From: Bacteroidota bacterium
GTDB taxonomy: Bacteria; Bacteroidota; Ignavibacteria; UBA10030; BY39
DNA: 38,909 nt
Assembly (NCBI GenBank): GCA_030682385.1
Contig: JAUXOG010000047.1
Location: forward strand, 1-38,909
Direction: 5' to 3'
Part shown: piece by piece, positions 6,509 to 25,371 of the stretch
Layout of the letters: the number at the start of each line of letters is the position of its first letter
Numbering within the stretch: the stretch's first letter is position 1
Position numbers and translations under genes: made by a program
The notes under the pieces: generated by a model
What the model was told of the DNA's origin: nothing
Databases searched by the model: none
What the model saw: only the letters and a program-made list of their open reading frames with translations

Positions 6509-6536
6509 TAAATGAATCAATTTCCCCTTCGTCAGC

Positions 6537-6565: not shown

Positions 6566-6596
6566 GTAATAACTTATTATTGAAAGGATCTTCAAA

Positions 6597-9302: not shown

Positions 9303-9303
9303 A

Positions 9304-12090
9304 ATGAAATTGAACTTACAAATTGTGTTTTTTATCCTCCTACTTTTTACAATTAATGCCAACGGACAACAGTATGAATTTTTTGATAAATCAAAACCAC
9401 GAATACCGCTTGCAAAAATTTCAGGCTCTCCATCCTATCAGATTCTAAACATAAACAACATAACAACCTGGCAACGCGCCGACGGACAATCGAATCACAC
9501 ACCATTAGGAGGTAACGGATGCATTTTCCCACGCGGCACTGCTTCGGTTATTTATCAGGATGGTATTTTATGGGGCGCAAAAACTTATCTCGATTCATCT
9601 TATACAGTGCCCCACTTAAATCAAGTCATTCGTGTCGGAGGAGCCACATACCATGTTGGTACGCGTGCGGGACGAATAGTTGGCTGGGATTCGAATGCCG
9701 TGCGGGCAAATGAAAACGACGCAGATGTCAGAACTTACCGCATCCGCCGGGATTATGCAGAGTTTGGACGTGTCCCTTATAATTGGGAACTTTTTAGAGA
9801 TGCCTCTGAATATTTTGAGATTCCAATCGGTAACCTCACTCATTCTCAAATTATACAAATTTTAAATTGGTACGAACGGGATTGGCTTGAGTGGCCCGTT
9901 CAATACGGGGCGCCATACATTGAACGGAATGGAATTGCGGGCTACCAACCACCACCACCGTTCAGTGTGGATTTTACCCACCACGATTTAATCTCAGGAA
10001 ATTACGATGAACCGGGAATTGGGGGTTACGACCACTCCTCTCCTGCTGATCAGGTTATCTGGACTGTTTACAATGACCTCGATCGTACAGCAACTCTTGG
10101 CTTATTTGGTTCTGAACCACTCGGACTTGAAATTCAAGTTACACTTTGGGGATATAAATCCACACTTCACATCAACAATGGATATTTTAAACGTGTACGA
10201 ATTATCAACAAAGGCGGCGTGGATATTGGCGGCGGACAGAAAGGATCATTGTGGATCGATAGTTTATTTATTGGTATCTGGTCGGACATTGACATCGGCG
10301 ACTTTGCGGACGACCTGATTGGCTGTGATACATTGCGTCAATCAGCTTTCTGCTACAACAATAATTCGACGGATGCAGAGTTCAAGAGATTCGATTTAAC
10401 ACCACCCGCAGTTGGGTATGCACTCCTCTACGGTCCCTTAGTACCGGGAAGTCCAACTGACAAGGGTGTTTTTGATTTCCGTAGTATTAATGGAAAAAGA
10501 AATCTTGGGATTACTTCTTTCTCACCAAAATTTTCAGGTAGTAGTTTTGGCGATCCTCCTTTTAGTTACGAGGGAGCGCTCCGTTGGTGGAAATGGCTTC
10601 GTGGATATCTTCCTGAACCGTCAACTAATCCCGATCGTCTCTATCCGCATCCACCCGGAATGTTGCCAACTAAATTTCCCTTTTCCGGGGATCCAATCAA
10701 CCGAACAGGTTTCATTGACGGTTTGGGGACGCTGTACTCAGCACCTGCGGGTGATCGAATATTCACACTCAGCACCGGACCGGTAAAACTTGCACCCGGC
10801 GAATCGACTGAAATTGTTTACGCCGTAATTGGAGGGCTTGCCAACGAACGCCTCGCAAGTTTTTCAATATTACGTCATTACACAGACATAACTCGCCATT
10901 TAGCAAAAATAAAATTTGCACTACCCCGTCCGCCGGAATCACCGAAGGTACGAGTTATCGAGCTTGACAGGGAAATTATTCTTGAGTGGGGGTCTGACCT
11001 TGCAAGTGTTCAGAAAATTGAAAACCAAGTTTTAGCTGAGGAATATGAATTCGAAGGTTACAACATCTATCAACTCCCCGCTGCCAATTCGTTAAAATCG
11101 GATGCAACCCGGATTGCTACGTACGACTTGAAAAACAATGTGGGATGGATAACGGACAAGTTTATCGATCCAACTTTTTATTATGTGCGGGAAGAGGTTG
11201 TACAACGCGGCGAGAATACAAGAATAAAACGCTATATCAGTTTCAAGCAGGATGTATTGGATATGAACCGCCAACTTAACAACGGACAGGAATATTACTT
11301 TGCAGTAACATCTTATAACTATTCGCAATCGCCGGATGCGTTACCGAGGGCAATGGAATCGGAAATAAATGTTCTGAAAGCCAAACCTCAAATCCCTTTT
11401 GGAGTCGGATTGCAAACAAAACACTTCGATAAACTTCTTGTCAAACATATACAAGGGCAAAGCGAGGGAATTATTTCACCTTACGTAATTGACCCGACAT
11501 CGGGAACCGGTGATACTTACGAAATTCGTTTTGACACAATAAATGGCGGAGTAAAGTGGAATTTATACAATTTAAATTCCAACAGACAAATCGTTACAAA
11601 CCAACGTGTGAACGGCGATCCAGACCCGCCGATAGTCGAGGGGGGAATTCTCCTCAAACTTGACTATGTGGATGTCGATACGGTAGGACTTCCACCTCAA
11701 CGCTACTACTGGCTTGATGATATTTATCAGTACACAGTACCGGCAATTGATAGTAGTCTTGAGCAGCAAAAGGCGAGCAGCCGCAGGGTGAATGTGTTTC
11801 CGAATCCGTACTATGCCGGGCACTCGCACGTAACCTCAAATTTTCAATCGTATGTAACATTCAACAATCTTCCGCCACGAGCGATAATACGGATATTTAA
11901 TTTAGCCGGACATCTTGTGCGAACGCTGCGCAAATCCGACACATCGCAGTTTGTCGAGTGGAATTTGAGAACTGAAGAAAACTTGCAGATAGCAAGCGGA
12001 ATGTATTTATGTTACGTTGAGATGCCAGAAATCGGCGAAACAAAAATTCTTAAACTCGCGATTATACAACCGGAAATTTTAGAAAGGTAG
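9304..12090 (+). CDS. Secreted T9SS protein partnered with a TonB receptor
   Basis: The 928-residue protein has a signal peptide (about residues 1-22, ending NANGQ). The main body is unrecognised and rich in W, Y and G. A fibronectin-like segment lies near residues 540-680, and the C-terminal T9SS type A sorting domain occupies about the last 100 residues (VFPNPYY motif, then IRIFNLAGHLVRTL). It should be exported through T9SS and attached to or released from the surface. A GAGGT ribosome-binding site sits inside the end of the receptor gene, and the start lies 1 base after that stop, so the two are translated together. The receptor plus large T9SS protein pairing recurs in this phylum, but the substrate is unknown. 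The last 26 codons are duplicated at 6344-6421. Confidence 0.8.
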   Translation: MKLNLQIVFFILLLFTINANGQQYEFFDKSKPRIPLAKISGSPSYQILNINNITTWQRADGQSNHTPLGGNGCIFPRGTASVIYQDGILWGAKTYLDSSYTVPHLNQVIRVGGATYHVGTRAGRIVGWDSNAVRANENDADVRTYRIRRDYAEFGRVPYNWELFRDASEYFEIPIGNLTHSQIIQILNWYERDWLEWPVQYGAPYIERNGIAGYQPPPPFSVDFTHHDLISGNYDEPGIGGYDHSSPADQVIWTVYNDLDRTATLGLFGSEPLGLEIQVTLWGYKSTLHINNGYFKRVRIINKGGVDIGGGQKGSLWIDSLFIGIWSDIDIGDFADDLIGCDTLRQSAFCYNNNSTDAEFKRFDLTPPAVGYALLYGPLVPGSPTDKGVFDFRSINGKRNLGITSFSPKFSGSSFGDPPFSYEGALRWWKWLRGYLPEPSTNPDRLYPHPPGMLPTKFPFSGDPINRTGFIDGLGTLYSAPAGDRIFTLSTGPVKLAPGESTEIVYAVIGGLANERLASFSILRHYTDITRHLAKIKFALPRPPESPKVRVIELDREIILEWGSDLASVQKIENQVLAEEYEFEGYNIYQLPAANSLKSDATRIATYDLKNNVGWITDKFIDPTFYYVREEVVQRGENTRIKRYISFKQDVLDMNRQLNNGQEYYFAVTSYNYSQSPDALPRAMESEINVLKAKPQIPFGVGLQTKHFDKLLVKHIQGQSEGIISPYVIDPTSGTGDTYEIRFDTINGGVKWNLYNLNSNRQIVTNQRVNGDPDPPIVEGGILLKLDYVDVDTVGLPPQRYYWLDDIYQYTVPAIDSSLEQQKASSRRVNVFPNPYYAGHSHVTSNFQSYVTFNNLPPRAIIRIFNLAGHLVRTLRKSDTSQFVEWNLRTEENLQIASGMYLCYVEMPEIGETKILKLAIIQPEILER

Positions 12091-12095
12091 TTTTT

Positions 12096-12452
12096 ATGAA
12101 ATATTATATTATCTTAATGCTCTTAGCTATCGTTAGCTGTCGGGAAATAAGCGGACCGAATAACCCAGAGCCAATTATACCGTCAGTTGATGAACTTATA
12201 TGGGTAGCAACAATCTATGTTGGTGGAAGGCAATGTGATCCTGCTGACCGCTACACACCGCCGGATGTTAAGCTTGTTTTAAATGAAGCGGGCATTGCGG
12301 TTTACGATACTGCAATCGAATACTATCTTGTATGTGCCGCTTGCAATTGTCCTTCTTACGCCGCGATGCACTTCGCATCAATCAGTAAAAAACAGTTGGA
12401 GCAAGCTGAACAATTGGGCTTCCAACAGAAAGATCCGCCACCGACGAATTAA
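12096..12452 (+). CDS. Small lipoprotein, copy A
   Basis: The product is 118 residues with a lipoprotein signal (hydrophobic stretch then VSC; lipid-carrying Cys at residue 15) and a short Pro/Ser-rich linker. The compact domain ends in DPPPTN and contains a conserved pair of Cys-containing segments (VCAACNCPSYAA). No family was recognised. It follows the T9SS protein by 5 bases and closes that operon. A second full copy at 18664-19023 is about four-fifths identical by eye, and a 5' scrap lies at 6447-6470. The CxxCxC cluster could bind a metal or form disulfides; this is inference. Confidence 0.75.
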   Translation: MKYYIILMLLAIVSCREISGPNNPEPIIPSVDELIWVATIYVGGRQCDPADRYTPPDVKLVLNEAGIAVYDTAIEYYLVCAACNCPSYAAMHFASISKKQLEQAEQLGFQQKDPPPTN

Positions 12453-12471
12453 GTAAAATCACATCGCAACT

Positions 12472-12585
12472 ATAAATACCGTAAGAGTTATTTTTTTACT
12501 ACAGTTAATTCCGTGCTTGATATGTGCAATAGTTGAAGTGATTTCGTATATTGCATATAAAATAAACACAGACTCACAGTATTGA
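12472..12585 (+). pseudogene. 37-residue membrane peptide gene, copy A, start codon lost
   Basis: The reading frame matches the intact small ORF at 19043-19156, but the ATG there is ATA here. The encoded peptide is one hydrophobic helix (LIPCLICAIVEVISYIAYK). Its TGA stop overlaps the ATG of the restriction-gene remnant by one base. It could still start at an internal TTG or GTG. Confidence 0.45.
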
Positions 12586-12994
12586 TGAAAAAAAATTTGA
12601 CAATTCCTGTTTTAATTACTGAAGCTAAGTCCTTCTGTAAAGATGAATCAAAGTTCGATAACAAAGACCTTTTTGGAGTTACGGATGGTAAAGCGGTCGG
12701 AACTTTTATATCGGCTCTTCTGCTAACGGCATTGATTTACCTTCTGACGATATCAGTACAGATATAAAAGTTACTTCAATTGAACAACCGCAATCTTCCT
12801 GCCCATTTCGGAATCCGAGACAGAAAATATATGGACTCGGCTACAATTTGCTTCTTTTTGTTTATAAAAAGACAGATGACTCTACTAAGAAGGCGGCGCG
12901 TTTGAATTTCCTTAGTTGCTCATTCATACATAAGTATCGAACTTCCGATTATCAGATGACAAAGACAATCCGTCAGCTGATTGAAGAAAAAGCG
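12585..12994 (+). pseudogene. Restriction-endonuclease-like gene, frameshifted and internally deleted
   Basis: The N-terminal part (LTIPVLITEAKSFC..., ending GKAVGTF) is followed after a frameshift near 12705 by a segment with GSSANGIDLPSDD and TDIKVTS. The D...DxK arrangement of this second segment fits a PD-(D/E)XK nuclease core. A further conserved-looking stretch, SCPFRNPRQKIYGLGYNLL, follows. From memory these pieces resemble one family of type II restriction endonucleases, but part of the middle appears missing and the end is replaced by a recombinase fragment from about 12995. No methyltransferase partner lies beside it. It is almost certainly inactive. The start shares one base with the preceding peptide stop. 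Confidence 0.6.
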
Positions 12995-13350
12995 TTCGCA
13001 GCATCATCAGTGAATCAGACATTCAATGCGCTGCGTTTTCTCTATGTAGATTTGTACACGATGCCATTCGCGATAGGGGCAGTTCCACGACCGAGAAAAG
13101 AAAAGCATCTCCCGATTGTTCTCGACAAAGAAGAAGTGGTACGAATATTTGATGCAGTAGAAAACCTGAAACATAAACCTATGCTAATGCTCATTTACTC
13201 AGCCGGACTGCGAGTAGGCGAAGCAGTAAAATTACGGGTTGAAGATATTGATTCTAAGAGAAAATTGATTTATATTAGAAGCGCCAAAGGCTTTCAGAGA
13301 TCCAAAATCCGATTGATAGTATGTGATTACATGAGAAAACGAATCTATAA
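12995..13350 (+). pseudogene. Tyrosine recombinase (phage/Xer-type integrase) fragment
   Basis: Residues in the same open frame as the end of the nuclease remnant give a SAM-like N-terminal segment, the linker RPRKEKHLP, and the start of the catalytic domain with the arginine box SAGLRVGEAVKLR. The lysine hairpin region IYIRSAKG follows. The HxxR box and the tyrosine nucleophile are absent; similarity fades after about 13,310 and the frame stops at 13456. It is a fragment and cannot catalyse recombination. The visible part does not let me decide between an integron integrase and another Xer-like enzyme. Confidence 0.7.
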
Positions 13351-13476
13351 TACAAATAAACGAAGTTCGTCTATTATACCAAAGGTAGGTATATATACGA
13401 AGTTCATTAATACACTAGTTAGCGGTCATTGTAACGGACACAAACACGACAATTAAACACAACCGATAGAAATAAT

Positions 13477-14202
13477 ATGGACATAATCGGCTACATTATT
13501 TTGGGACTAAGTATTTTAATCACCTTAGGCTGGTGTTTACAAATTAGGGGAAAAGCCAAAAACGAACAAGCAACTGAAAAGTCAATGGAACTACAAGGCT
13601 TTCTAATGACCGTTTCTGTAATATTGATACCCTTGCTTCATCTTTCTCCCTTCCATTTACTTTGGATGCTTCCTGCCTCATTCATATTGGGACTTTTAAG
13701 CATTACTACACCACTTAGAATTTTGTGGATTTTTTCTTCAATCTACTTTTCATTATGGTATATTGGAATAAGCAACTTAGGTCGGAAGTATTATGTTGCT
13801 GGAGAGTATGACAAAGCAATAGATGCTTTTAAAGAAGAAATTATTAAAAATCCCTCATCCGCTGAAGCACACTTTAACCTTGGACTGGCATACGGCAAAA
13901 CGGGACAACACAACAAAGAAATTGCTGCATACGAAGAAGCAGTAAAATTTAATCCAAAACGACCTGAATTACATTTTAATCTTGGGACTGTCTATGACGA
14001 CATCGGGAATAAGCAACAAGCAATAAGCGTATTAAATGAAGCAATACGGTTAAGACCTGAATACCTAAAAGCACACTACACTATTTGCAAAATATATTCT
14101 GAAATAGGCGACCTTGACAATGCAATAAAAGAATTTGAGATAGTTAAAAAACTTGACAACGGTGTTGCAGACGAATTGGCTTCAATCATAAAGTTGGCGT
14201 GA
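13477..14202 (+). CDS. Membrane protein with TPR repeats
   Basis: The product is 241 residues. The N-terminal ~105 residues hold about four hydrophobic segments (near 3-21, 43-62, 66-84 and 86-104). Three to four tetratricopeptide repeats follow from about residue 108, with typical AHFNLGLAY and LHFNLGTVY signatures. TPRs mediate protein binding; the partner is unknown. The gene starts 20 bases after the end of the recombinase-fragment frame. It is the last gene before attC-like site 2, whose R'' box lies 55 bases after the stop. Confidence 0.75.
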   Translation: MDIIGYIILGLSILITLGWCLQIRGKAKNEQATEKSMELQGFLMTVSVILIPLLHLSPFHLLWMLPASFILGLLSITTPLRILWIFSSIYFSLWYIGISNLGRKYYVAGEYDKAIDAFKEEIIKNPSSAEAHFNLGLAYGKTGQHNKEIAAYEEAVKFNPKRPELHFNLGTVYDDIGNKQQAISVLNEAIRLRPEYLKAHYTICKIYSEIGDLDNAIKEFEIVKKLDNGVADELASIIKLA

Positions 14203-14533
14203 CAAATCGAGAGATGAAATGAATAACTTGAAACTCGTAACGAAAGAACAACGAACCGCTAACAGCAGTAGCAACGGCGCTCCATTTATGGTAGACGAAA
14301 ATTATAGTGGTCGCTCAATGTGCCGCCTTCACAGGAAAGTCATCGTTAATAGTTCGGCGGCACACTGCGTTGCTACTGCACACGTTATGCGTAATTTTGC
14401 GAAAACGACATAGCGGTCATTAACGGGCTGACCAACCCAAAGTCGGACAAAGCTGAACACCGACACCAAATAAAAAAGTAAGCACGGGGACGCTGAAAAC
14501 CGATTAGAGTAAGCAAAACAAAATTTCAAGAAA
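14203..14533. other. Gene-free stretch containing attC-like site 2
   Basis: The 331-base gap between the TPR gene and the small secreted-protein gene holds attC-like site 2 and about 140 further bases with no recognised promoter or RNA. An open frame at 14219-14413 runs through the hairpin arms of the site and is not considered a gene. Confidence 0.6.
14257..14390 (+). other. attC-like recombination site 2 (134 nt)
   Basis: CGCTAAC (14257-14263) is followed by one base and GCAGTAGCAACG (14265-14276). This arm pairs perfectly with CGTTGCTACTGC (14368-14379), then ACAC and GTTATGC (14384-14390). The inner stem is TGTGCCGCC (14319-14327) / GGCGGCACA (14356-14364). The length is within the range known for attC sites. 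The central segment (AGTGGTCGCTCAATG...) aligns with attC-like site 3, so the two are of one family. Confidence 0.75.
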
Positions 14534-14878
14534 ATGAAAAAACTATTTTTATTAACAGCAATGTTGGCAATAACAGTTTTAGGTGTAAACGCCCAAACAA
14601 AAAAAGACGGCACACCTGATATGCGTTATAAAGCCAACAAGGAAATGTATGGTAACAGTTACTCGTCACCGACCTATTCTACGCCAAGTTACTCAACACC
14701 GAGTTATTCAACTCCTTCCTATTCACAACCGAAACAAGAAAGGAACTACGACAACGGTGGACAGTTGAAAATGCAGAATGGTTATATGAAAAGTAACGGA
14801 ACATATGTTGAACCTCATTTAAAAACAACCCCGGACAACAATAAATTGAATAACAAAAGTTCGTGGGACCCTGAATGA
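14534..14878 (+). CDS. Small secreted protein with YSTPS repeats
   Basis: The product is 114 residues with a clear signal peptide (residues 1-20, cleavage after VNA-Q). A low-complexity tract follows at about residues 40-62, built of YSTPS units encoded by imperfect 15-bp tandem repeats. The C-terminal part (MKSNGTYVEPHLKTTPD) resembles a short conserved motif seen in other small secreted bacterial proteins. Function is unknown. It is the first gene of the cassette between attC-like sites 2 and 3, and a terminator hairpin follows it. Confidence 0.7.
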   Translation: MKKLFLLTAMLAITVLGVNAQTKKDGTPDMRYKANKEMYGNSYSSPTYSTPSYSTPSYSTPSYSQPKQERNYDNGGQLKMQNGYMKSNGTYVEPHLKTTPDNNKLNNKSSWDPE

Positions 14879-14897
14879 GAATTTATGAATTGACAAA

Positions 14898-14934
14898 GGT
14901 AGAGTAAAATAAATACTTTACCTCTGTTTTTTTT
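14898..14934 (+). terminator. Rho-independent terminator
   Basis: GGTAGAGTA (14898-14906) and TACTTTACC (14914-14922) form a 9-bp stem with one G-T wobble and a 7-base loop, followed shortly by eight T (14927-14934). It ends transcription of the small secreted-protein gene and separates it from the three-gene unit that follows. Confidence 0.7.
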
Positions 14935-14956
14935 ACTAACGCTAAAACAAATAACA

Positions 14957-15184
14957 ATGACACCTAAAAATCACGGCAAAGAATGGACTGCACAAGACAT
15001 TAAGCAACTTGAAAAACTCGCAGACCAAAATACACCGACCAGAGTAATCGGATTAAAAATCGGACGGACAGAAAATTCTGTAAGAAGTGCTGCGTCTGAA
15101 AATGACATTTCTTTGAAGCCGACAAATCAATGTGTGGTGCATAAACGTAACACCAAAATGATTATTGTTCAGAGGACTCAATGA
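14957..15184 (+). CDS. Small HTH-like (SANT/Myb-like) protein
   Basis: The product is 75 residues. Residues 8-55 (KEWTAQDIKQLEKLADQNTP...GRTENSVRSAAS) have the tryptophan and helix pattern of a homeodomain-like DNA-binding fold, as in a family of small bacterial proteins. After KPTNQ (about residue 58) the tail looks unlike what I expect for that family, and base composition becomes more GC-rich soon after. The end may therefore have been rebuilt by recombination. The stop overlaps the next start (ATGA), so the two are coupled. It may regulate the unit; this is inference. Confidence 0.55.
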   Translation: MTPKNHGKEWTAQDIKQLEKLADQNTPTRVIGLKIGRTENSVRSAASENDISLKPTNQCVVHKRNTKMIIVQRTQ

Positions 15185-15924
15185 ATCGCATCAATCAATA
15201 TCCCAATCGCTCAGCGAATCGCTTCTATTACCTCATGTTCGTTTTCCTGTTAGTCACACAGGGAAAGGCTCAGGACATAAAGGTCTATGAAACGGATCGG
15301 TTCGGCATCAAGAGTATTAGCCCGAGCATCATTATCGACGAGAACTCAGCAACAGGTGAATTTGAGGTCTACTCGGTTGACAAGTTTGGCCTGCGAAATA
15401 TCAGCCCGGACGAAATTATCCAGAGAGACGACTATGGCGGCGCGTGGAAGGTTTATCGTGTGAACAATCTCGGGTTGAGAGACATAGTTCCCAAGAAGAT
15501 TGCAGACGAGAACCGGCAGGATGGTAGTGTGCAAGTATTCAACGTAAATGATCTTGGACTTAAGGAAATCTCCCCATCGACAATAATTGAAAAGGATAAC
15601 TTCAGTGGCGATATCAAACTCTATAATGTCAATGACTTTGGAATCAAGGAGATTTCGCCATTTGAGCTCATGAAGAAAGAAGGGGATCGCTACAGTGTTT
15701 ATGCGGTAAATCAGTTTGGATTACCGGGTATCACGCCCAAGCGCGTGGTCGAAATAGACCAGACCCATTCGGTTTTCGGAATCCTGCTTCTGCCATCAAT
15801 AAAGCAAATTAGCTTTGATCCTGGAAATACGAAAATCAAAATGATACGTCAACTCGACGACACGACCAACGTGAGAATTAAGGAGAAGGGCTGGTTGAAA
15901 AGCAACCCAAAGGTGAAACAATGA
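15181..15924 (+). CDS. Exported protein of six 28-residue repeats, unknown family
   Basis: The product is 247 residues. A hydrophobic segment at about residues 15-31 (ending GKAQD) looks like a signal peptide with a longer N-terminus. Residues 33-198 are six tandem repeats of about 28 residues with the pattern VYxVNxFGLKxISPxxII, the last two slightly degenerate. A short tail rich in Lys and Asp follows. The repeats would form stacked beta units; I do not recognise the family. It overlaps the upstream gene by ATGA (15181-15184) and the downstream gene by ATGA (15921-15924), so the three are translationally coupled. GC is visibly higher here than in the flanking cassettes, suggesting a different origin. 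Confidence 0.7.
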   Translation: MNRINQYPNRSANRFYYLMFVFLLVTQGKAQDIKVYETDRFGIKSISPSIIIDENSATGEFEVYSVDKFGLRNISPDEIIQRDDYGGAWKVYRVNNLGLRDIVPKKIADENRQDGSVQVFNVNDLGLKEISPSTIIEKDNFSGDIKLYNVNDFGIKEISPFELMKKEGDRYSVYAVNQFGLPGITPKRVVEIDQTHSVFGILLLPSIKQISFDPGNTKIKMIRQLDDTTNVRIKEKGWLKSNPKVKQ

Positions 15925-18440
15925 CTACCCCTGATCTTCCATCGGAAATTGATTCACGTGAACTGGTCTCTTGTCCAAACTGCAAGGCAATATATCGCAT
16001 TCCTCGTACCGAGACAGTTCTAAAAATTACTTGTTCACACTGTCAGACAGTGTTCTACAAGAACCTTCCTGCACGCAAGAACAGAAGGCGAATCAAGTAC
16101 CTGTTGCCAGCAGCCGTCATCGTTCTCATTACAATGATAATATTACTCGTTCAGTTTGCCGCAAAGCAAACTCCAAGTCCTAATAACTCAGCTATCTCAA
16201 AAATTGATGAAGAGTCTAAACCGGGCAAACCGAAAATCACAGGTCCGGCATCAAGCAATTGGATTACGATCTCATACGGCGGTTTGGTCGATGGCTCCAT
16301 AATAACTCACAGCGGTGAAACAGTCAGCGAGGTGGTCCGGAAGATTCCAGACTATGATGAAACGCTGAAGGGTTTAGTGCAGCAGTACCTCGAACCGTAT
16401 TCATTTCTCTGTCACGACGTCTTGCTCTCCATCAGCGACATTGATTCATTTCCCCTTGTCAACATCACCTACTACTATCCCATAGGGGTTCCACAACCCG
16501 CTTGGGCATCCCTCTTTCGGGAGGGGCATTTTCAGCTGTACTACAATCCTCATCTCATCCGCCTATTCTTGAAAGGAACCAATCCTCAACAAAGCTTCGA
16601 CAAGTATCGTTCAGTCGTAAGACACCCGATTCAGGATGTTCTGGAACGCCATCCGAGTTCAATCAAGCAACTCGAAGTCTACGTGTTCAGTAACGACTAC
16701 TCAAGAATGGAAATGCGATTGAACACTGTGCCCGCTATTTATCCAATAGATGCCTTCGACTTGTCACCAACGAACAAACAGATAGACCTTGCCAGCATTG
16801 AAGATTTCCTAAAGGAGGGAGTTATCTTGGAGGCTGTAGAAGTCGATGGCGACAACGATTTGTACTTTTATGGCAGGAAGGCACCTCGCCAAACAATCGC
16901 TGGCTTCCCAATTTCACTTTCAGATATTGCCGTCATATATAGGTCTGTTTTCCACTATGGCAATAATGCACCCTACATTAGCTTGGACAAACATGAAGAT
17001 AACAGATTTGCCAAAGTGAATTTCGGAGGTCATTTAGAAAATACTCGTGTCGGACAAGTGGTTCTAGAAGCAGATAAGCTGTTTAAGACCATTGGGACCG
17101 GTTTGGATCCAAACACGCACGAGAACGTGAAATCGCGAATTGCTAAATATGTCTCCGGTTTTCTCACAGAGGACGAGCGTTCGCTGCTGGAAGATCACAC
17201 GCCCGGCCACTCGCTTATCCGCTATTGGTTCTACCCAGATTCTATTGGGACAGTAACCGACGGATCAATTGGAGTTGTCATGACACACCAATTCCTCGCA
17301 GATGTCGAACGAATGGATGTGAAGGTAAGTGTCAGTAGTGCCACGCGCAGAACAATTGATCACCTAAATCACCACTTTAGCGAATACGAAAATGCGGATG
17401 TTACGTACAAAGAACTGAGCACAGTAGGGCGAATTATGGCGCTTGTCAACTGGCTAAAAGGAATGAATATGAATCAGAGGATCGAGTTGGACGAATTCCT
17501 TTCTGTGCCACTTCCTGCTTTAACGACTCCATTACACACAAAAAAACTGTTGGCAGTCTCAGCAATCGCTTATCCCAAATATTCACCCCCGGATGTTGGA
17601 GACGTAAGGGCTTACACTCGGGTCTTCTATCTCTCACAGTTGCTTGACCGGCATGGTCCCGCCACAAAAGATGAACGGTTTATGGAGAACGCCTCACGAT
17701 CTGTCCCTGACATTTCTGGTTTAGCCTTCCCCAGGCAGAAACAACTGAAATCAACAGTTGATGTGTACGAGCCTCTAATCAAAGAAAACGAGTCGAGGAT
17801 ACTGTCTCTCGAACGAGACATCGAACGGAGGAAGTACACACTCGATCGAACAAGTCAATACGAAGTTGATAGTTATAACGCTCTTGTTGAACGGTCTAAC
17901 GGGTTAATCCAGACCCAGAAGTCTTACATCAATATCTACAATGAAGCTGTCCAAGAACTCAACGAAATGCAGGTGCAGACTCGTCAGATAACTTCCATTG
18001 GCGGAGGAATCAACCTCAGCCCGAAGGAGTTCAAGGTGATGTCTCGCGATATCACATCACCAAGAATCCGTGAACTGAACGCCATCAGAAACAGCATCAG
18101 AACCGTGGGGAACGTTGCGAGATCGGGTGATTGGGTCCGAAATAATGTCGCTGGGCGGAGTTTGAGGGTGAACCTCATTCCAAGAGGTGAGTGGACTTCT
18201 TCCAAAAGAATGAATGGGAAAACAAAATACAGCTATCGGTCCAGTTCAGCGGAAGCTGTTTCAATGTCGCTTTTTGCGGAACAGAACCAGTGGGAATCCA
18301 ATATCTCTGTAAACAATTCTCACCACGTAGTCAGATTTTCAAAAACGACGAATGTTTTGCAGGTAAACAATTCACCCCTAAAAAGTGAATTGGTAGGAAA
18401 GCTATCCACAGATAGAAGACGGATTGTCTTTTCCAAATGA
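15921..18440 (+). CDS. Membrane-anchored zinc-ribbon protein with large extracytoplasmic part, unknown family
   Basis: The product is 839 residues. A zinc ribbon lies at residues 18-41 (CPNC...CSHC), of the type that opens many zinc-ribbon membrane proteins. A single transmembrane helix (about 58-80) follows after a basic stretch. The rest is probably outside the inner membrane. It has a mixed alpha/beta region with NFGGHLENTRVGQVVLEAD near residue 370 and a predicted coiled coil at about residues 604-690, rich in Glu, Arg and Gln. I do not recognise a catalytic motif. It is the last gene of the coupled three-gene unit, and attC-like site 3 starts 33 bases after its stop. It probably works with the 28-residue-repeat protein; the role is unknown. 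Confidence 0.7.
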   Translation: MTTPDLPSEIDSRELVSCPNCKAIYRIPRTETVLKITCSHCQTVFYKNLPARKNRRRIKYLLPAAVIVLITMIILLVQFAAKQTPSPNNSAISKIDEESKPGKPKITGPASSNWITISYGGLVDGSIITHSGETVSEVVRKIPDYDETLKGLVQQYLEPYSFLCHDVLLSISDIDSFPLVNITYYYPIGVPQPAWASLFREGHFQLYYNPHLIRLFLKGTNPQQSFDKYRSVVRHPIQDVLERHPSSIKQLEVYVFSNDYSRMEMRLNTVPAIYPIDAFDLSPTNKQIDLASIEDFLKEGVILEAVEVDGDNDLYFYGRKAPRQTIAGFPISLSDIAVIYRSVFHYGNNAPYISLDKHEDNRFAKVNFGGHLENTRVGQVVLEADKLFKTIGTGLDPNTHENVKSRIAKYVSGFLTEDERSLLEDHTPGHSLIRYWFYPDSIGTVTDGSIGVVMTHQFLADVERMDVKVSVSSATRRTIDHLNHHFSEYENADVTYKELSTVGRIMALVNWLKGMNMNQRIELDEFLSVPLPALTTPLHTKKLLAVSAIAYPKYSPPDVGDVRAYTRVFYLSQLLDRHGPATKDERFMENASRSVPDISGLAFPRQKQLKSTVDVYEPLIKENESRILSLERDIERRKYTLDRTSQYEVDSYNALVERSNGLIQTQKSYINIYNEAVQELNEMQVQTRQITSIGGGINLSPKEFKVMSRDITSPRIRELNAIRNSIRTVGNVARSGDWVRNNVAGRSLRVNLIPRGEWTSSKRMNGKTKYSYRSSSAEAVSMSLFAEQNQWESNISVNNSHHVVRFSKTTNVLQVNNSPLKSELVGKLSTDRRRIVFSK

Positions 18441-18472
18441 GAAGACTGTACCACATGTAGCAAACCAACGGC

Positions 18473-18603
18473 GCCTAACACGCCGCACTACGACGCTCCG
18501 TCATTTGATAAGGATTAAAGTGGTCGCTCAATGGCACGCCTTCGCAGAAGATTGATTTATTATAGCTCGGCGTGCCACTGCGTGGTACGGCGAGACGTTA
18601 GTT
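18473..18603 (+). other. attC-like recombination site 3 (131 nt)
   Basis: GCCTAAC (18473-18479) fits the R'' consensus exactly. It is followed by one base and CGCCGCACTACG (18481-18492), which pairs with CGTGGTACGGCG (18581-18592) with two mismatches, then AGAC and GTTAGTT (18597-18603). The inner perfect stem is GGCACGCC (18533-18540) / GGCGTGCC (18569-18576). Its middle aligns base for base over long stretches with site 2. Confidence 0.72.
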
Positions 18604-18663
18604 GAAATATCGCAAATTTTAGAAAGATAGTTTTTTAAAAAAAAATAATAATTTGGAGGTGAT

Positions 18664-19023
18664 ATGAAATATTGTATTATCTTAATGCTTGTAGCTATCG
18701 TTAGCTGTCGGGAAATAAGCGGACCAATCAGCTCAGAACCGATTGTACCACCAGTTGTTGATGAACTCATCTGGGTAGCAACATTGTATGTTGGTGGAAG
18801 GCAATGCGATCTTAATGACAGCTACACTCCGCCGGATGTGAAGCTTGTTTTAAACGAAGTGGGTATTCGGGTTTACGATACCGCAATCGAATACTATGCT
18901 GTATGTGCTGCTTGTGGTTGTCCTTCTTACGCAGCGATGCACTTCGCATCAATCAGTAAGGAACACTTGGAGCAAGCTGAAAAATTGGGTTTCCATCAGC
19001 AAGATCCGCCACCAACAAATTAA
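18664..19023 (+). CDS. Small lipoprotein, copy B
   Basis: The product is 119 residues, a paralogue of the protein at 12096-12452, with the lipobox VSC at residue 15, the same VCAACGCPSYAA cluster and the DPPPTN end. Here the receptor and T9SS protein are missing; only the last few codons of the T9SS gene (ILER stop, near 18615-18630) remain just behind attC-like site 3. A near-ideal GGAGGTGAT ribosome-binding site precedes the start, unlike copy A. It may be expressed alone or with the peptide and restriction genes that follow. Confidence 0.75.
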   Translation: MKYCIILMLVAIVSCREISGPISSEPIVPPVVDELIWVATLYVGGRQCDLNDSYTPPDVKLVLNEVGIRVYDTAIEYYAVCAACGCPSYAAMHFASISKEHLEQAEKLGFHQQDPPPTN

Positions 19024-19042
19024 GCAAAATCACATCGTAACG

Positions 19043-19156
19043 ATGAATGCCGTAAGAGTTATTATTTTACTACCGTTAATTCCGTGCTTGATATGTGCAA
19101 TAGTTGAAGTGATTTCGTATATTGCATATAAAATAAACACAGACTCAGAGTATTGA
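19043..19156 (+). CDS. 37-residue single-helix membrane peptide
   Basis: The product is MNAVRVIILLPLIPC followed by a hydrophobic stretch and a short polar tail ending NTDSEY. It looks like a single-pass membrane peptide. The frame is conserved in the copy at 12472-12585, which has lost the ATG. The stop TGA shares one base with the ATG of the next small ORF (19156). No ribosome-binding site is obvious, so it may depend on the lipoprotein gene upstream. Its near-identity between copies, higher than the lipoprotein's, suggests either selection or a very recent exchange. Confidence 0.45.
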   Translation: MNAVRVIILLPLIPCLICAIVEVISYIAYKINTDSEY

Positions 19157-19236
19157 TGAAAAAAAAATTGACAATTCCTGTTTTAATTACTGAAGCTAAG
19201 TCCTTCTGTAAAGACAGACAAAATTTCTACTTTTGA
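19156..19236 (+). pseudogene. 5' remnant of the restriction-endonuclease-like gene (26 codons)
   Basis: It keeps the first 19-20 codons of the gene that starts at 12585 (KKLTIPVLITEAKSFCKD), then runs into foreign sequence and stops. The stop lies 3 bases before the ATG of the restriction endonuclease at 19240, which has no ribosome-binding site of its own. The remnant may therefore now serve as a translational leader. Confidence 0.6.
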
Positions 19237-19239
19237 CAA

Positions 19240-20217
19240 ATGGAAAATAAAAACGACAAGAATTTTAAAACCGTAATAGATAAGAACACTTTCTACTTCT
19301 ACAACCCTGTTTTCCAAGAGAAGTATGAAAGTTATATTAACTCTCTCAAAGAAACGCTCCTCGTTCTTAAAAATAAGGTTGAAACAGACGGACTGAAAAA
19401 AGAATTTTTTGAAGCCCTACTCTTAGACAAAGAAAATGGACTTCGTGCCTTGCTCGCCTTGACAGGTTTTGCAAATGAAAGTTTGAAACGGTTACTAACC
19501 GTTGTGCGTGTTGCCGACAATAAAGAACTTTCGAAGCTGCTTTACAAGGATAAATGGGCGAAAAAAGAAAGTGGAATAGAACTTTCCGAATGGGGCGACA
19601 CAAAAATTATCAAACTACTCAAAGACAATTCCGATTTCAGAAAAGGAATTGTAAATCTTTTCTTTGAAGGTTCAACCATTCCGTTTTTAGCACAGACACT
19701 GCCGCTTTTTGAATTAAAGAAGTTAAGCATTTCAAAATTAAAATTTGAAGTGCCAGCAATGATTGACACGCTTGTTCGCTACAAAGAGAAAGGTTCATAT
19801 TCAGGAAAAGCGGAAAATAATCCAGAGGCACTTTTAGCAATGCTCATAGACGAGTGTGAACTCACTTATGAAAAAGGTGACCTAACAGAACTTTTCAAGA
19901 GGGAAAAGGTTGCGAAACGAACAATGGATTTTATTATTCCCGATAAGAAAAATCCCAAAGTAATTATTGAAAGTTCATTCCTCGTTACAACTTCTTCTGG
20001 ACAAGGTGACAAATCCAAGACAGAAGGTTCAATCAAAAAACTTATTTCCAAATATTATCCGAAAGCAAAGTTCATCGGCTTTGTTGATGGAATTGGTTGG
20101 TATGTCCGCAAAGGAGATTTGATGAGAATGGTTTCTGCTTACGATGATGTTTTTACTTTCCACAAAGACGAGATAGAACGCTTCAAACAATTTCTGAAAA
20201 AAGAATGTAAAAGATGA
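19240..20217 (+). CDS. Probable type II restriction endonuclease (DpnII-like fold suspected)
   Basis: The product is 325 residues and overlaps a DNA methyltransferase gene by 4 bases (ATGA), the standard restriction-modification layout. Near the C-terminus, MDFII (Asp230), IIESSF (Glu244) and GFVDGIGWY resemble the order of the DpnII-type catalytic region (DFVI, IEVN, TDGQGWY), recalled from memory. The N-terminal two-thirds is helical and rich in Leu and Lys. It should cut unmodified DNA; the site recognised cannot be read from sequence. The ATG at 19240 is the first possible in-frame start after a stop codon at 19234-19236. It is the main load of the cassette between attC-like sites 3 and 4. 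Confidence 0.65.
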   Translation: MENKNDKNFKTVIDKNTFYFYNPVFQEKYESYINSLKETLLVLKNKVETDGLKKEFFEALLLDKENGLRALLALTGFANESLKRLLTVVRVADNKELSKLLYKDKWAKKESGIELSEWGDTKIIKLLKDNSDFRKGIVNLFFEGSTIPFLAQTLPLFELKKLSISKLKFEVPAMIDTLVRYKEKGSYSGKAENNPEALLAMLIDECELTYEKGDLTELFKREKVAKRTMDFIIPDKKNPKVIIESSFLVTTSSGQGDKSKTEGSIKKLISKYYPKAKFIGFVDGIGWYVRKGDLMRMVSAYDDVFTFHKDEIERFKQFLKKECKR

Positions 20218-21326
20218 TTGATAAATTCCTAAATAAAATTACACAAGGCGACTGCTTGAAATTGTTAAAGCAAGTTCCAGACAATTCAGTTGATATAACA
20301 TTTGCCGACCCACCTTTCAATTTGAAAAAGGGTTACAACAGTTACAAAGACAGTTTGAAGTTGCAGGAATATTTGAATTGGTGTGAGCAATGGATTACAG
20401 AAATGGTTCGCATTACCAAGCCGACAGGTTCTATTTTCGTTCACAACATTCCCAAGTGGCTGACATACTATGCTTCATTTCTCAACAAGCAAGCGGACTT
20501 CAAACATTGGATAAGTTGGGACGCACCGACAGCCCCAATGGGAAAATCATTACAACCTGGACATTATGGAATTTTATTTTACGCCAAAGACGCAAAGCAG
20601 TTGAAGTATCACGAAATCCGCCATCCGCACAAGCGAACACGAAAAGAAAAAATACTTGCGAAAGATTATGGCGGGAAAAAATTTATGCTGCATCCGTTTG
20701 GACCTTTGGTTTCGGATGTTTGGACAGACATTCACAGAATTAAGCATAACAAGTTTCGGGACGAACATCCGTGCCAACTTCCAATTCATTTACTTGAAAG
20801 GATAATTTTAATGAGCACGGATGAAAATGATATTGTTCTTGACCCTTTCAACGGCACTGGCACGACAGCAATTGCTGCAAAACGGCTCGGTAGACAGTTT
20901 ATCGGCTTTGACCTTGATGAGCACTATGTAAAAATCACTCGACAAAAATTAGAACAAGTAGAACCAATTTCAAAAATTGGCGACCGCTGTGTAAGTTTTT
21001 ATCTTGACCAAGTTGTAACGCTACGCAATGACGACTGGGATTATTTAAAAGACTTCTATTACATTCCCAACATCGCAGAAGAAATTGACACGACACAAAT
21101 TATTCTTAAAACAAAAGTTTCTGTTCAGACACCTTTGAAAAGTTACTTGACAGTAAACGGTAACAGTAACGGACACGACCACAACCACCAGACAACTTTG
21201 TTTGAGCCGACAGTTCACTACGGACTAAACGGCAACGGACACGGACAGAAAAGAAAGGCGGCACATAACAGCGGCTTGGCAAAAGCGGGGGCGACTACGA
21301 AAAAGAAACGGAAGTATTCCAAATAA
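20214..21326 (+). CDS. DNA methyltransferase, beta-class N6-adenine or N4-cytosine type
   Basis: The product is 370 residues. The catalytic motif DPPF is at residues 32-35, and the S-adenosylmethionine site DPFNGTGTT comes late (about 210-218). This motif IV before motif I order defines the beta class. It modifies the DNA site cut by the overlapping upstream endonuclease, protecting the host. A target-recognition part lies in between. The C-terminal ~110 residues are less conserved in look, rich in Asn, Gly, His and Lys. The last ~21 residues are encoded by the left arm of attC-like site 4, which begins at 21263. The true functional core therefore ends earlier and the tail has been supplied by the recombination site. 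Confidence 0.88.
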   Translation: MIDKFLNKITQGDCLKLLKQVPDNSVDITFADPPFNLKKGYNSYKDSLKLQEYLNWCEQWITEMVRITKPTGSIFVHNIPKWLTYYASFLNKQADFKHWISWDAPTAPMGKSLQPGHYGILFYAKDAKQLKYHEIRHPHKRTRKEKILAKDYGGKKFMLHPFGPLVSDVWTDIHRIKHNKFRDEHPCQLPIHLLERIILMSTDENDIVLDPFNGTGTTAIAAKRLGRQFIGFDLDEHYVKITRQKLEQVEPISKIGDRCVSFYLDQVVTLRNDDWDYLKDFYYIPNIAEEIDTTQIILKTKVSVQTPLKSYLTVNGNSNGHDHNHQTTLFEPTVHYGLNGNGHGQKRKAAHNSGLAKAGATTKKKRKYSK

Positions 21327-21394
21327 ACTTTTGTGCTGGAAGACAGTGAAGTGTTTCAAACTCCCCGCCTTCGCCAAGCCGCAAACCGTTATAC
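21263..21394 (+). other. attC-like recombination site 4 (132 nt), overlapping the methyltransferase 3' end
   Basis: ACATAAC (21263-21269) is followed by one base and GCGGCTTGGC (21271-21280). This arm pairs perfectly with GCCAAGCCGC (21373-21382), then five bases and GTTATAC (21388-21394). An inner GCGGGG (21285-21290) / CCCCGC (21363-21368) pairing extends the stem. Orientation is the same as the other three sites. The stop codon of the methyltransferase (21324-21326) lies inside the site. Confidence 0.7.
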
Positions 21395-21463
21395 GCATCG
21401 TCAAACTCACAGAAAACATTGATGGGATAGTGCGAATAATCGACAAGGTATAAGATATTATCA

Positions 21464-23320
21464 ATGGAAAACGCCCTTCAACATATCAAAGAAACAACGC
21501 TCGACTTCTTAAGGTCTCGATTCAAACAAATTCATGGATTCGATGATGCAAACAGAGAGATGCTTCAATTGTCTGGTATTAACGATTTTTTCTTGACCGA
21601 ACAAGACTTCCAACTTTTCTTAGAACTTCTCGAACCACGTCCAAAGGTCGCTGATACGACAATGAGGCGAGAATACGGAGATTTCCAGACCCCACCTAAT
21701 CTAAGCAAGACTGTCTGCGATTTCCTTCTTTCATATGGAATATCGCCAAAGGTTTTAATTGAACCCACTTTCGGAAAAGGCTCGTTTATTCTCTCAGCAA
21801 TTGAAACATTTCCAATGCTCGAGGAAATACACGGCGTAGAAATCTATGAGCCTTATTGTTGGCATACTAAGTTTGCGGTGCTTGAACTGTTCATCGAAAA
21901 ACCCAATCTCAATCGTCCCTCAATCTTTCTTTACCGCAATGACGTTTTTAAATTCGACTTCCATAAACTTGTTGAAATCACTAGAAAACAAGAGATGCTT
22001 GTTTTAGGTAATCCACCTTGGGTTACAAGCTCTGAGTTAAGTGCACTTAATTCCACCAATATTCCGACTAAGAGCAATTTCAAGTCGCATAACGGATTAG
22101 ATGCCATTACAGGAAAAGGCAACTTTGATATTGGTGAGTATATTATTTTAATGATGCTCAATGCTTTCGCAGACCACACTGGCTCCCTTGCAATGTTGGT
22201 AAAGAATTCAGTCATCAAGAATGTCCTTCAGGATTTGCCAAACACTACGTACCCAATCTCAAATCTTGTTGCATTGAGGTTTGATGCAAAAGTACACTTT
22301 AATGCATCCGTTGATGCATCCCTCTTTCGATGCAGCTTTGGATCCCGCTCCACCAACGGCGGATCCGCCTCAGGCGGAAAAGCGGGACAAGATCAGTTAA
22401 CCTGCAAAGTTGCAACACTTGTTTCGCCACAGTCGATTGAAAGTGAATTCGGCTGGGTAGGAAACAAGTTTGTCTCTGACATCACTGCATATCAAGAGAC
22501 TCAATTTTATGATGGTTCCAGCCCATTTGTCTGGCGACAGGGAGTCAAGCACGATTGTTCCAGAATATTAGAGTTAGAGCTTATAGATAGAAAGCTCATG
22601 AACGGATTCAATGAATTTGTTGACATTGAAAATGATCTTGTTTTTCCTTTAGTGAAAAGTTCAGACATTCAAAACTCGCTAATTGTAACACCTCGAAAGT
22701 TTGTCATCATTACCCAGAAGAAAGTAGGTGAGGAAACTACCTTTATTGCTCAAAGATTTCCACGTCTAAACCGATACCTCTCTGATAATCTGCGATTCTT
22801 CTCAGAAAGGAAGTCGAGCATCTATAATGGTAAATCTCCCTATGCCATCTTTGGTATAGGAGAATATTCATTTAAGCCTTTCAAGGTGGCAATATCTGGC
22901 TTTTATAAGAAACCTTTTTTTTCGCTCGTACCGCCGTACAACAACAAGCCGACAATGTTAGATGATACATGCTACTTCCTTGGCTTCGATAACCAAACAC
23001 AAGTGGCTTTCGTTTTACTTATTTTAAACAGCGAACCTGTCCAGAAGTTGCTTCGCTCTTTGACGTTTTTAAATGCTAAACGACCTTATACTAAGGATAT
23101 TCTGATGCGCATCGACATTCACAAGGTAGCAGAACACCTTGGTTTTGACCGCGTAAGAGATAAAGGACTTGCAGATAAATTACCAGAAAGTATCCTGCAA
23201 TCGCTAACTCGGGAAAAGTGGGTTGAGTTCTTGGCAAGTTGCGAGAATGTCTCTCAAACTAAATCTCAGTATTCTCTCTTCAAGCAACCATCCTCCATCT
23301 CCGCGGGTATCGTTTCCTAA
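21464..23320 (+). CDS. N6-adenine DNA methyltransferase, gamma-class (Eco57I/type IIG-like)
   Basis: The product is 618 residues. The cofactor-binding motif EPTFGKGSF (100-108) comes before the catalytic NPPW (183-186), the gamma-class order. A C-terminal target-recognition-like region follows (about 350-580). There is no nuclease motif, so it is a stand-alone modification enzyme or the second methyltransferase of the neighbouring restriction system; systems with asymmetric sites often need two. Residues about 293-311 (RSTNGGSASGGKAG) are encoded by a GC-rich palindromic element inserted in frame. The start at 21464 is 69 bases after attC-like site 4. No fifth attC-like site was found after its stop. 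Confidence 0.8.
   Translation: MENALQHIKETTLDFLRSRFKQIHGFDDANREMLQLSGINDFFLTEQDFQLFLELLEPRPKVADTTMRREYGDFQTPPNLSKTVCDFLLSYGISPKVLIEPTFGKGSFILSAIETFPMLEEIHGVEIYEPYCWHTKFAVLELFIEKPNLNRPSIFLYRNDVFKFDFHKLVEITRKQEMLVLGNPPWVTSSELSALNSTNIPTKSNFKSHNGLDAITGKGNFDIGEYIILMMLNAFADHTGSLAMLVKNSVIKNVLQDLPNTTYPISNLVALRFDAKVHFNASVDASLFRCSFGSRSTNGGSASGGKAGQDQLTCKVATLVSPQSIESEFGWVGNKFVSDITAYQETQFYDGSSPFVWRQGVKHDCSRILELELIDRKLMNGFNEFVDIENDLVFPLVKSSDIQNSLIVTPRKFVIITQKKVGEETTFIAQRFPRLNRYLSDNLRFFSERKSSIYNGKSPYAIFGIGEYSFKPFKVAISGFYKKPFFSLVPPYNNKPTMLDDTCYFLGFDNQTQVAFVLLILNSEPVQKLLRSLTFLNAKRPYTKDILMRIDIHKVAEHLGFDRVRDKGLADKLPESILQSLTREKWVEFLASCENVSQTKSQYSLFKQPSSISAGIVS
22341..22394. repeat. GC-rich palindromic element inserted in frame in a methyltransferase gene
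   Basis: CCCGCT (22344-22349) pairs with AGCGGG (22381-22386). Inside are the palindromes GGCGGATCCGCC (22358-22369) and CCGCCTCAGGCGG (22365-22377). The element adds about 18 residues of Ser, Gly, Lys and Ala without breaking the frame. Similar GC-rich palindromes are at 6470-6508 and 23413-23432. Confidence 0.6.
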
Positions 23321-23358
23321 ACTATCTAATCGGCATGGCAGTGCAATTAACAACAACA

Positions 23359-23446
23359 ATTGAATCATTGAACCATTGGATCAATGATTCAATGTCAGCC
23401 GAAGGCTGATGTGCCCGCCTGACCGGACGGGCAGGCCTCTGGCACA
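23359..23446. repeat. Three stacked inverted repeats in the boundary region
   Basis: A perfect 13-bp inverted repeat with a 9-base loop (23359-23371 / 23381-23393) is followed by a TCAGCC/GGCTGA hairpin (23395-23409). A GC-rich palindrome (23413-23432, one mismatch) follows, enclosed by TGTGCC/GGCACA (23410-23415 / 23441-23446). There is no clear T-run, so a Rho-independent terminator is possible but not proven. This block marks the border between the accessory region and the housekeeping cluster. Confidence 0.6.
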
Positions 23447-23471
23447 AACAAATGGTCAAATTTTCCCCTCC

Positions 23472-23500
23472 TTGATTCTAACCTCTTTTTTGTATATATT
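23472..23500 (+). promoter_or_regulatory. Sigma70-like promoter for the fatty-acid synthesis cluster
   Basis: TTGATT (23472-23477) and TATATT (23495-23500) are separated by 17 bases, about 50 bases before the start at 23558. It is the only good candidate in the AT-rich stretch before the long gene run. Confidence 0.4.
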
Positions 23501-23557
23501 TTAGCTGCTTTTTTACAAAAACTGTTACTTTAATCGTTATTTAACATATTTTAGAAA

Positions 23558-24121
23558 ATGGAAACTCCGGCACAACATTCTAAAAAGCCAAATAGAGTAT
23601 CTGAATCCGGTTTGAGAATAAATATTTCAAAACTGTCGGAGGGAATACACGACTTTAATCTGCAGGCTGACCCGTCGCAACTTGAATTGGGCGATACGTT
23701 CACTTCACCTGTATCAGTAAATGTTAAATTAGATAAAAGTTCAACACAAATTTATCTGAAAGCCGAAATTGCGTTGGACGGAAATTTTACGTGCGACAGG
23801 TGCTTAATTGATTTTAAATCTGAATTTCGCACATCATTCAATATCGTTTTTATGTATGAAGCTCGCGGCTTGAAAGGCGAACAATCGAACGATATTCAGA
23901 TTCTAAGCCCCGACACAAACCATATCGATATCGCTGAGGATGTGCGACAATACATACTTTTAGCAATACCGATAAAGATTTTATGTTCAGAAAATTGCAG
24001 AGGGCTATGCCCTTCGTGCGGCACTGATTTAAACCAAAACCAATGCAAATGCGACAGCGAAACACACGACCCAAGATGGGAAACGTTATCCAAAATTATT
24101 AAGAATGAAAAAAATAATTAA
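23558..24121 (+). CDS. yceD: DUF177 / YceD family protein
   Basis: The product is 187 residues. The family pattern is visible: CDRCL in the middle (about residues 79-83), then a C-terminal CPSCGTDLNQNQCKC cluster giving a four-cysteine site. Members are encoded directly upstream of rpmF in most bacteria and are linked to 23S rRNA and L32 biology. That same arrangement holds here, with rpmF 19 bases downstream. It is the first gene of the long cluster. Confidence 0.88.
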   Translation: METPAQHSKKPNRVSESGLRINISKLSEGIHDFNLQADPSQLELGDTFTSPVSVNVKLDKSSTQIYLKAEIALDGNFTCDRCLIDFKSEFRTSFNIVFMYEARGLKGEQSNDIQILSPDTNHIDIAEDVRQYILLAIPIKILCSENCRGLCPSCGTDLNQNQCKCDSETHDPRWETLSKIIKNEKNN

Positions 24122-24140
24122 ATAGATGGAGAAATATTAA

Positions 24141-24326
24141 ATGCCAAATCCAAAACGAAGACATTCAAAATCACGTGGTGCAAAACGACGAACTCACTAC
24201 AAAGCAGCAACCCCGGCAGTAGGCGAATGCCCAAATTGCCACGAACACCGACTACTTCACCGCGCATGCCCAAACTGCGGGCACTACAACGGCAAAGCTG
24301 TACTTATTCCAAAAGAAACAAAATAA
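24141..24326 (+). CDS. rpmF: Large-subunit ribosomal protein L32
   Basis: The product is 61 residues and shows the family start [12 protein letters not shown] and two CxxC pairs (CPNC...CPNC) forming a zinc ribbon (the C+ form). It binds 23S rRNA in the 50S subunit. A GGAG ribosome-binding site lies 9 bases upstream. The coupling with plsX is the common bacterial order. Confidence 0.97.
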
Positions 24327-24342
24327 TTAGTTTTACATCTGC

Positions 24343-25371
24343 TTGTCAAAGCAAAATGGTAAAATAAAAATTGTTGTGGATGCTATGGGGGGTGATTTCG
24401 CACCTGCCAACATCGTAGCCGGCGGAATTGAAGCTTTGCGTGAAAGCAACAACCGATTTGAGATTATCTTTGTGGGTATCGAAGCCGATATCAAAAACGA
24501 AATCGCAAAGTTAAATGCTGATGGTTTGAGCTACTCGATCGTTCATGCGTCGGAAGTCATCGACATGCACGAATCACCTACGGTTGCGTTCAAACAAAAA
24601 AAAGATTCCTCGATTGTTGTAGGTTTAAACCTGCACAAAGCAGGCAAAGCCGATGCGTTCCTCAGTGCTGGCAATACCGGCGCAGTGATGTCGGCATCTA
24701 CACTTTTGCTCGGACGAATCAATGGAGTAAGCCGCCCCACAATTGGAACCTTCTTCCCTTCTCAAAAAGGGCAATGCCTGCTATTGGATGCTGGCGCCAA
24801 TGTCGATTGCCGTCCTCAACACCTTGTTGAATTTGCGATGATGGGGAGTATTTATGCTAATTACATTTTAAATTCCCCAAATCCTACGGTTGGTATTGTA
24901 AGCATCGGCGAAGAAAGTTCAAAAGGAAACGAAGTTACAATTGAAGCTCATCGTTTATTAAAAGAAAGTAAACTGAATTTCATCGGCAACATCGAAGGCA
25001 GGGATATTTTGAAAGGCAAAGCTCAGGTTATTGTGTGCGATGGTTTTGTTGGAAATATCGTGCTGAAATTTGCCGAGAGCACACTCGGTTTTTTAAAATC
25101 GAAATTTAAATCGTACGCCTCCGAGAGTATCTTTAAAAAGATATGGGTAGGTTTGATGTACGGAACTCTGAAAAAGATACTGAAAGATTTCGACTACCAG
25201 GAAGCGGGTGGTGTACCGTTATTAGGTGTTAAAGGAATTTCGTTGATCGGTCATGGCAGTTCTACACCGAAAGCAATTAAGAATATGGTTTACCGGGCTG
25301 AAGAAATGGCTGCTAAACAAATTGATAAACAAATAGCAAAATTGATGTCGAATACAAATACAAATGAATAA
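24343..25371 (+). CDS. plsX: Phosphate acyltransferase PlsX
   Basis: The product is 342 residues and converts acyl-ACP to acyl-phosphate for phospholipid synthesis. The family signature VDAMGGDFAP sits at residues 12-21, and AGNTGAVMSAS and the conserved FVGNI stretch are present. No in-frame ATG lies between the last upstream stop and the signature: the ATG at 24356 is out of frame and hits a stop. The TTG at 24343 is therefore the likely start, 16 bases after rpmF. The end overlaps fabH by 8 bases. Confidence 0.95.
   Translation: MSKQNGKIKIVVDAMGGDFAPANIVAGGIEALRESNNRFEIIFVGIEADIKNEIAKLNADGLSYSIVHASEVIDMHESPTVAFKQKKDSSIVVGLNLHKAGKADAFLSAGNTGAVMSASTLLLGRINGVSRPTIGTFFPSQKGQCLLLDAGANVDCRPQHLVEFAMMGSIYANYILNSPNPTVGIVSIGEESSKGNEVTIEAHRLLKESKLNFIGNIEGRDILKGKAQVIVCDGFVGNIVLKFAESTLGFLKSKFKSYASESIFKKIWVGLMYGTLKKILKDFDYQEAGGVPLLGVKGISLIGHGSSTPKAIKNMVYRAEEMAAKQIDKQIAKLMSNTNTNE

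Follow-up and report, generated by a model that had tools for sequence, protein, structure and literature searches.

A linked gene pair encoding a secreted 28-residue-repeat protein and a zinc-ribbon membrane protein, candidate partners in an envelope complex

Which of three overlapping reading frames in a gene cassette region belong together, and what might their products do? The window analyzed here (38,909 nucleotides) is one entire contig of a source genome comprising 140 contigs. The initial annotation described a three-gene unit in it, and the three ORFs, with their two ATGA overlaps at 15181 and 15921, were found where it had placed them:

14957-15184, plus strand: HTH cassette gene with a lost 3' end, placed outside the unit by comparison with relatives and absent at the compared loci
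15181-15924, plus strand: gene 2, encoding a 247-aa exported protein (from its repeats, homologs and AF2 model)
15921-18440, plus strand: gene 3, encoding an 839-aa bitopic protein (from Pfam, topology prediction and relatives)

In relatives from the same order, the HTH protein reads ..PTNQSPYNR.. and stops shortly thereafter; in the window, the copy diverges directly after PTNQ and continues with foreign sequence. Nor was the HTH ORF found at any of the five related loci compared. Since the copy is broken after PTNQ and is missing from these loci, the most plausible reading of its overlap with gene 2 is that the junction produced it by chance. The ATGA at 15181 does speak for the original proposal, in which all three genes form a single operon under the control of the HTH protein, but with a gene that is truncated at its 3' end relative to its relatives, and that is missing beside the pair elsewhere, we regard such an operon as highly improbable and have rejected the HTH gene as a member of the unit. 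What stands is the linkage of genes 2 and 3; the true unit is two genes, not three, and is thereby distinguished from a fortuitous operon that includes the broken HTH cassette.

Whether the pair comes apart elsewhere was checked at the ten loci carrying the zinc-ribbon form of gene 3 (the window, L016, L017, L018, L019, L020, L021, L067, L069 and L070). The hosts range over distant environmental bacteria; besides that of the window, they are Cloacimonadota, Zixibacteria and a biofilm MAG, and one locus is on a phage contig. Gene 2 adjoins gene 3 in all ten. The arrangement is tandem in eight and tail-to-tail with touching ends in the other two (L017 and L018), whose gene 3 proteins are 90% identical and were counted as one lineage. 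At L019, a small membrane coiled-coil gene separates the two partners. As the pair is adjacent in both orders, its linkage probably goes beyond mere operon inheritance. The two genes also diverge in a correlated manner, with r = 0.83 between their pairwise distances and none of 5000 Mantel permutations reaching as high a value, a correlation that partly reflects shared host phylogeny. The MAG at L019 is labeled Armatimonadota; this label looks wrong, because the genome search puts the locus in the same phylum as a Cloacimonadota genome (G616).

The gene 2 protein begins with a hydrophobic segment ending in ..KAQ, followed by six 28-residue repeats, starting at approximately residues 32, 62, 90, 118, 146 and 172, and a conserved tail VFGILLLPSIKQI. 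When the sequence is compared with itself, 43 positions are identical at offset 28, no other offset between 20 and 35 gives more than 16, and none of 2000 shuffles reaches 43, which bears out the six-copy repeat that had been described. Homologs with 45-57% identity are found at the nine other loci. Structures were predicted for single chains, gene 2 and gene 3 each alone, and the AF2 model of the gene 2 protein is a beta-hairpin meander of moderate confidence (mean pLDDT 72). Its structural matches were weak and mixed, e.g. tubby (Z 8.4), OspA and propellers. The predicted secondary structure fits a MORN-like hairpin meander, and the model resembles the single-layer sheet of OspA and viral MORN proteins weakly, with Foldseek TM-scores below 0.35; the protein differs from these in its repeat length of 28 and its consensus, VYxVNxFGLKxISPxxII, as well as in the lack of a match to the MORN sequence profile, hmmscan returning just a sub-threshold DUF2963. 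The protein is probably periplasmic.

The gene 3 protein is composed of a zinc ribbon (residues 16-45), a single predicted transmembrane helix directly after it (61-77), a core (approximately 112-560), a coiled coil (604-683) and a strand-rich C-terminal part (755-839). The ribbon matches Pfam Zn_ribbon_4 (PF13717; 1.9e-07, 31.3 bits against a cut-off of 30.3), as it does in five of the six members tested, and its two CxxC pairs (C18, C21, C38 and C41) are kept in all ten members, L067, L069 and L070 included, while the score against NCBIfam TIGR02098 stayed below the model cut-off. The zinc ribbon of the initial annotation is thus confirmed; its large coiled-coil part, by contrast, shrinks to some 80 of the 839 residues. 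In its four cysteines and the helix that follows, the protein is like the MJ0042-type/Zn_ribbon_4 ribbons, from which it differs in that its other 790 residues match no family. Close relatives are 49-57% identical, conservation relative to the window copy being highest over residues 301-560 (66-73% identity) and falling to 32-42% in the C-terminal part. The predicted structure is poor (mean pLDDT 46) and too weak for a fold search, and the VIA-align rows of this protein mainly reflect coiled-coil coverage and carry little meaning.

Two further relatives have the same core, with 37% (L068) and 51% (L071) identity to the window copy, and an N-terminal signal-like segment, read from hydropathy and secondary structure rather than by a dedicated predictor, in place of the ribbon and transmembrane helix:

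L068, 979-2940: ribbon-less version of the gene 3 core with a signal-like segment
L071, 8494-10663: the same, interrupted by the contig end

Because these two carry a signal-like segment instead of the ribbon and anchor, the gene 3 core (approximately 112-560) is, as read from sequence, extracytoplasmic. No gene 2 was present on the 5.7-kb contig of L068, and none was seen near the interrupted L071 core, so the core may function without gene 2. The L068 core precedes a gene for a TPR/sigma-54-type regulator, and that of L071 follows an FKBP gene.

Searches of both proteins against Pfam, NCBIfam, PHROGs and PADLOC yielded nothing past the gene 3 ribbon, and sequence searches of the PDB, with single proteins as well as profiles, gave no match. 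The earlier statement that genes 2 and 3 belong to no recognized family consequently holds except for the Zn_ribbon_4 segment. Residues 302-441 of gene 3 are nonetheless homologous to an RHS-linked domain (hhalign 98.4%; a reverse profile search finds gene 3 at 1.5e-13), which lies beside RHS/DUF6531 in three genomes of the same phylum (L010-L012) and also occurs in a lipoprotein-like protein (L023), the distant relatives of this segment being exported-looking proteins or neighbors of RHS repeats. The likeness is confined to that homology: hmmscan finds no RHS/YD repeats in gene 3, and the RHS-linked proteins showed neither a ribbon nor a gene 2 partner. The domain N-terminal to the DUF6531/RHS repeats is itself uncharacterized and unnamed. 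Gene 3 motifs resembling EADxLxK, RYWFYPD and GGGIxLxP offer a lead to DUF1598 (PF07643), a family of planctomycete exported proteins. With an E limit of 10, the hmmscan list for gene 3 did not include DUF1598, and a genome search with PF07643 matched nothing anywhere, controls included, so that a remote relation is possible. Literature searches found nothing on DUF1598 and nothing useful on MJ0042 or MORN.

With gene 2 exported and gene 3 bitopic with an extracytoplasmic core, the envelope location proposed for both proteins is supported. On balance we favor the reading that they are partners in one envelope complex of the accessory genome, with a sensing or scaffolding role at the inner membrane and in the periplasm. 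The gene 2 protein would be secreted via Sec and fold, once in the periplasm, into stacked beta-hairpins, and gene 3 would be anchored in the inner membrane, with the zinc ribbon facing the cytoplasm and the large conserved core on the other side. This core would be bound by the gene 2 protein and serve as the envelope sensor or scaffold, and the ribbon would signal the complex's state to the inside or recruit a cytoplasmic partner; the input might, purely as a guess, be phage attack or envelope damage. We infer direct binding between the two proteins as well as signaling through the ribbon. Mutual binding is most likely because the two exported partners stay adjacent in different orders. This appears to be a two-protein envelope module that lies outside the searched family libraries save for its ribbon. 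Its borders are clear, ten loci carry it and its invariant residues are listed, and a module defined in this manner makes its function directly testable.

The assignment to the accessory genome relates to the surroundings of the pair in the window, where the following features were found:

12500-23471: island with the cassette remnants, missing in a congeneric sibling species
12095-12643, plus strand: left copy of a direct repeat, holding a lipoprotein-like gene and bordering the cassette block
14256-14391, plus strand: attC-like site 1
18473-18603, plus strand: attC-like site 2, just 3' of gene 3
18663-19214, plus strand: right copy of the direct repeat

The sibling species aligns 6509-12499 directly to 23472-26319, joining window positions 12499 and 23472, so that 11 kb are missing there, and a profile search found neither gene 2 nor gene 3 in it. 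This empty site supports the gain of the island. Along with the pair and the attC-like sites, the island contains a restriction-modification block, a TPR gene, the second copy of the lipoprotein-like gene, and an integrase fragment in fusion with what is left of a restriction enzyme; no tRNA was found to mark the island. The two copies of the 552-bp direct repeat are 89.5% identical, and the sibling has one copy. Transfer had been argued from base composition. The GC content of genes 2 and 3 (0.445 and 0.456) does exceed that of the adjacent cassettes (0.36-0.39), but it resembles that of other parts of the contig (0.41-0.43); GC is therefore weak evidence of transfer and was rejected as proof of it.

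The pair does lie between two attC-like sites, as had been noted, and these are 75% identical over 88 nt. Site 1 folds strongly (z -4.6, 0 of 200 shuffles) and site 2 weakly (z -2.0, 4 of 200 shuffles), the latter being the window's highest-ranking RYYYAAC...GTTRNNY inverted pair. Set against an integron cassette, the pair has an attC-like site directly downstream, at 18473-18603; in place of an intact integrase, the array has only a fragment at 12848-13456, corresponding to positions 37-165 of the 315 of the integron integrase model and fused to the restriction-enzyme remnant, and in place of one short ORF, four ORFs occupy the approximately 4.1 kb between the sites. The fourth of these, at 14534-14878, was not part of the initial description. 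At 12582-13456, a restriction enzyme and an integron integrase, each reduced to a decayed remnant, are fused in one frame. Elsewhere in this genome, BLAST found attC-like sequences on five contigs, with significant scores for four of them, and palindromes were located as follows:

L043, contig C76: one attC-like palindrome
L045, contig C11: one attC-like palindrome
L046, contig C47: one attC-like palindrome
L047, contig C64: one attC-like palindrome

No integrase was seen adjoining these four, and the scattered palindromes are either solo sites or an unrelated family of palindromic repeats.

A scan of 84,980 species genomes returned five close relatives of gene 3 (49-54% identity). Profile searches of two other phyla found members in five of the 125 genomes belonging to the phylum of L018 and in four of the 132 belonging to that of L020, counts that include four of these first five. 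In the window's class, 1 of 391 genomes has the pair, namely the window's own. Two weak early genome hits (L007 and L008) were dropped as not coding in appearance. No relatives of the pair were found in the phage and plasmid collections; a separate scan of viral contigs (IMG/VR) added one gene 3 relative:

L059, 233-3448: pair at one end of an IMG/VR contig with phage head genes

The pair on the phage contig, with a GC content of approximately 0.35, abuts head genes of approximately 0.56 at the contig end, and is possibly cargo, flanking host DNA or the product of a chimeric assembly. The gene tree largely tracks host phylum and so does not establish long-distance transfer of the whole family. 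Such a tree implies long retention, as would be expected if the pair were a plain structural or surface-maintenance module, i.e. an envelope scaffold or a factor that helps assemble exported proteins, with incidental mobility and no role in conflict. That the relatives of the core are exported-looking proteins, found also beside RHS repeats, and that upstream of the pair at L070 lies a gene whose 1668-aa product has a sorting tail of the secretion type, would suit this as well, yet the very patchy presence documented by the counts above is unusual for a housekeeping function. We consider such a module a real possibility, albeit a somewhat improbable one.

A defense role had been called possible in view of the restriction-modification block that follows the pair in the window. 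The other loci have different neighbors, and a constant restriction-modification partner was accordingly rejected. Nuclease or restriction neighbors occur in three of the seven independent informative lineages (the window, L017/L018, L019, L020, L067, L069 and L070), a raw count that is no more than a hint of defense. The two nuclease loci outside the window are:

L017, 1832-3648 (the same in L018): defense-type HNH nuclease and 214-aa membrane protein upstream of gene 3 (PDC-M68A and CBASS-effector-type models)
L070, 10527-11803: 135-aa membrane protein and 290-aa nuclease protein directly 3' of the pair

The nuclease at L070 is of the pPIWI-associated type (Pfam 2.7e-21; PADLOC Aga_Nuclease 1.1e-13), and its 135-aa membrane protein gene lies 28 bp downstream of the pair, possibly placing both genes in one operon with it. 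Elsewhere, a VapBC pair is found at L019, a Panacea gene near L018, a DnaJ-TerB protein at L067 and phage head genes adjoining L021, with ordinary genes at L020 and L069.

A defense role for the pair is possible, and the pair could, by analogy with Zorya, be the envelope-sensing part of an anti-phage module, its complex detecting phage entry and an adjoining nuclease acting on DNA. The combination of a nuclease and a small membrane protein next to the pair in two unrelated lineages (L017/L018 and L070), together with the restriction-modification block, VapBC, Panacea and phage head genes, favors this. However, neither protein matches PADLOC at E up to 0.1, the neighbors differ in every lineage, and the two small membrane proteins show no convincing relationship to each other (E = 0.13), which makes such a module unlikely in our view. 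The resemblance to Zorya lies in a membrane complex with a large extracytoplasmic part and assorted nucleases nearby, whereas the pair has neither motor proteins nor a detected sequence relation to that system, and its nuclease is not constant. Decidedly less probable still is the more specific notion that the repeat protein and the zinc-ribbon protein form a receptor with exchangeable nucleases (HNH, pPIWI-associated type and restriction enzymes) that aborts phage infection. The named nucleases do provide concrete partners with which a defense role can be tested. Lastly, the order of nuclease, membrane protein and gene 3 at L017/L018 is mirrored at L070.
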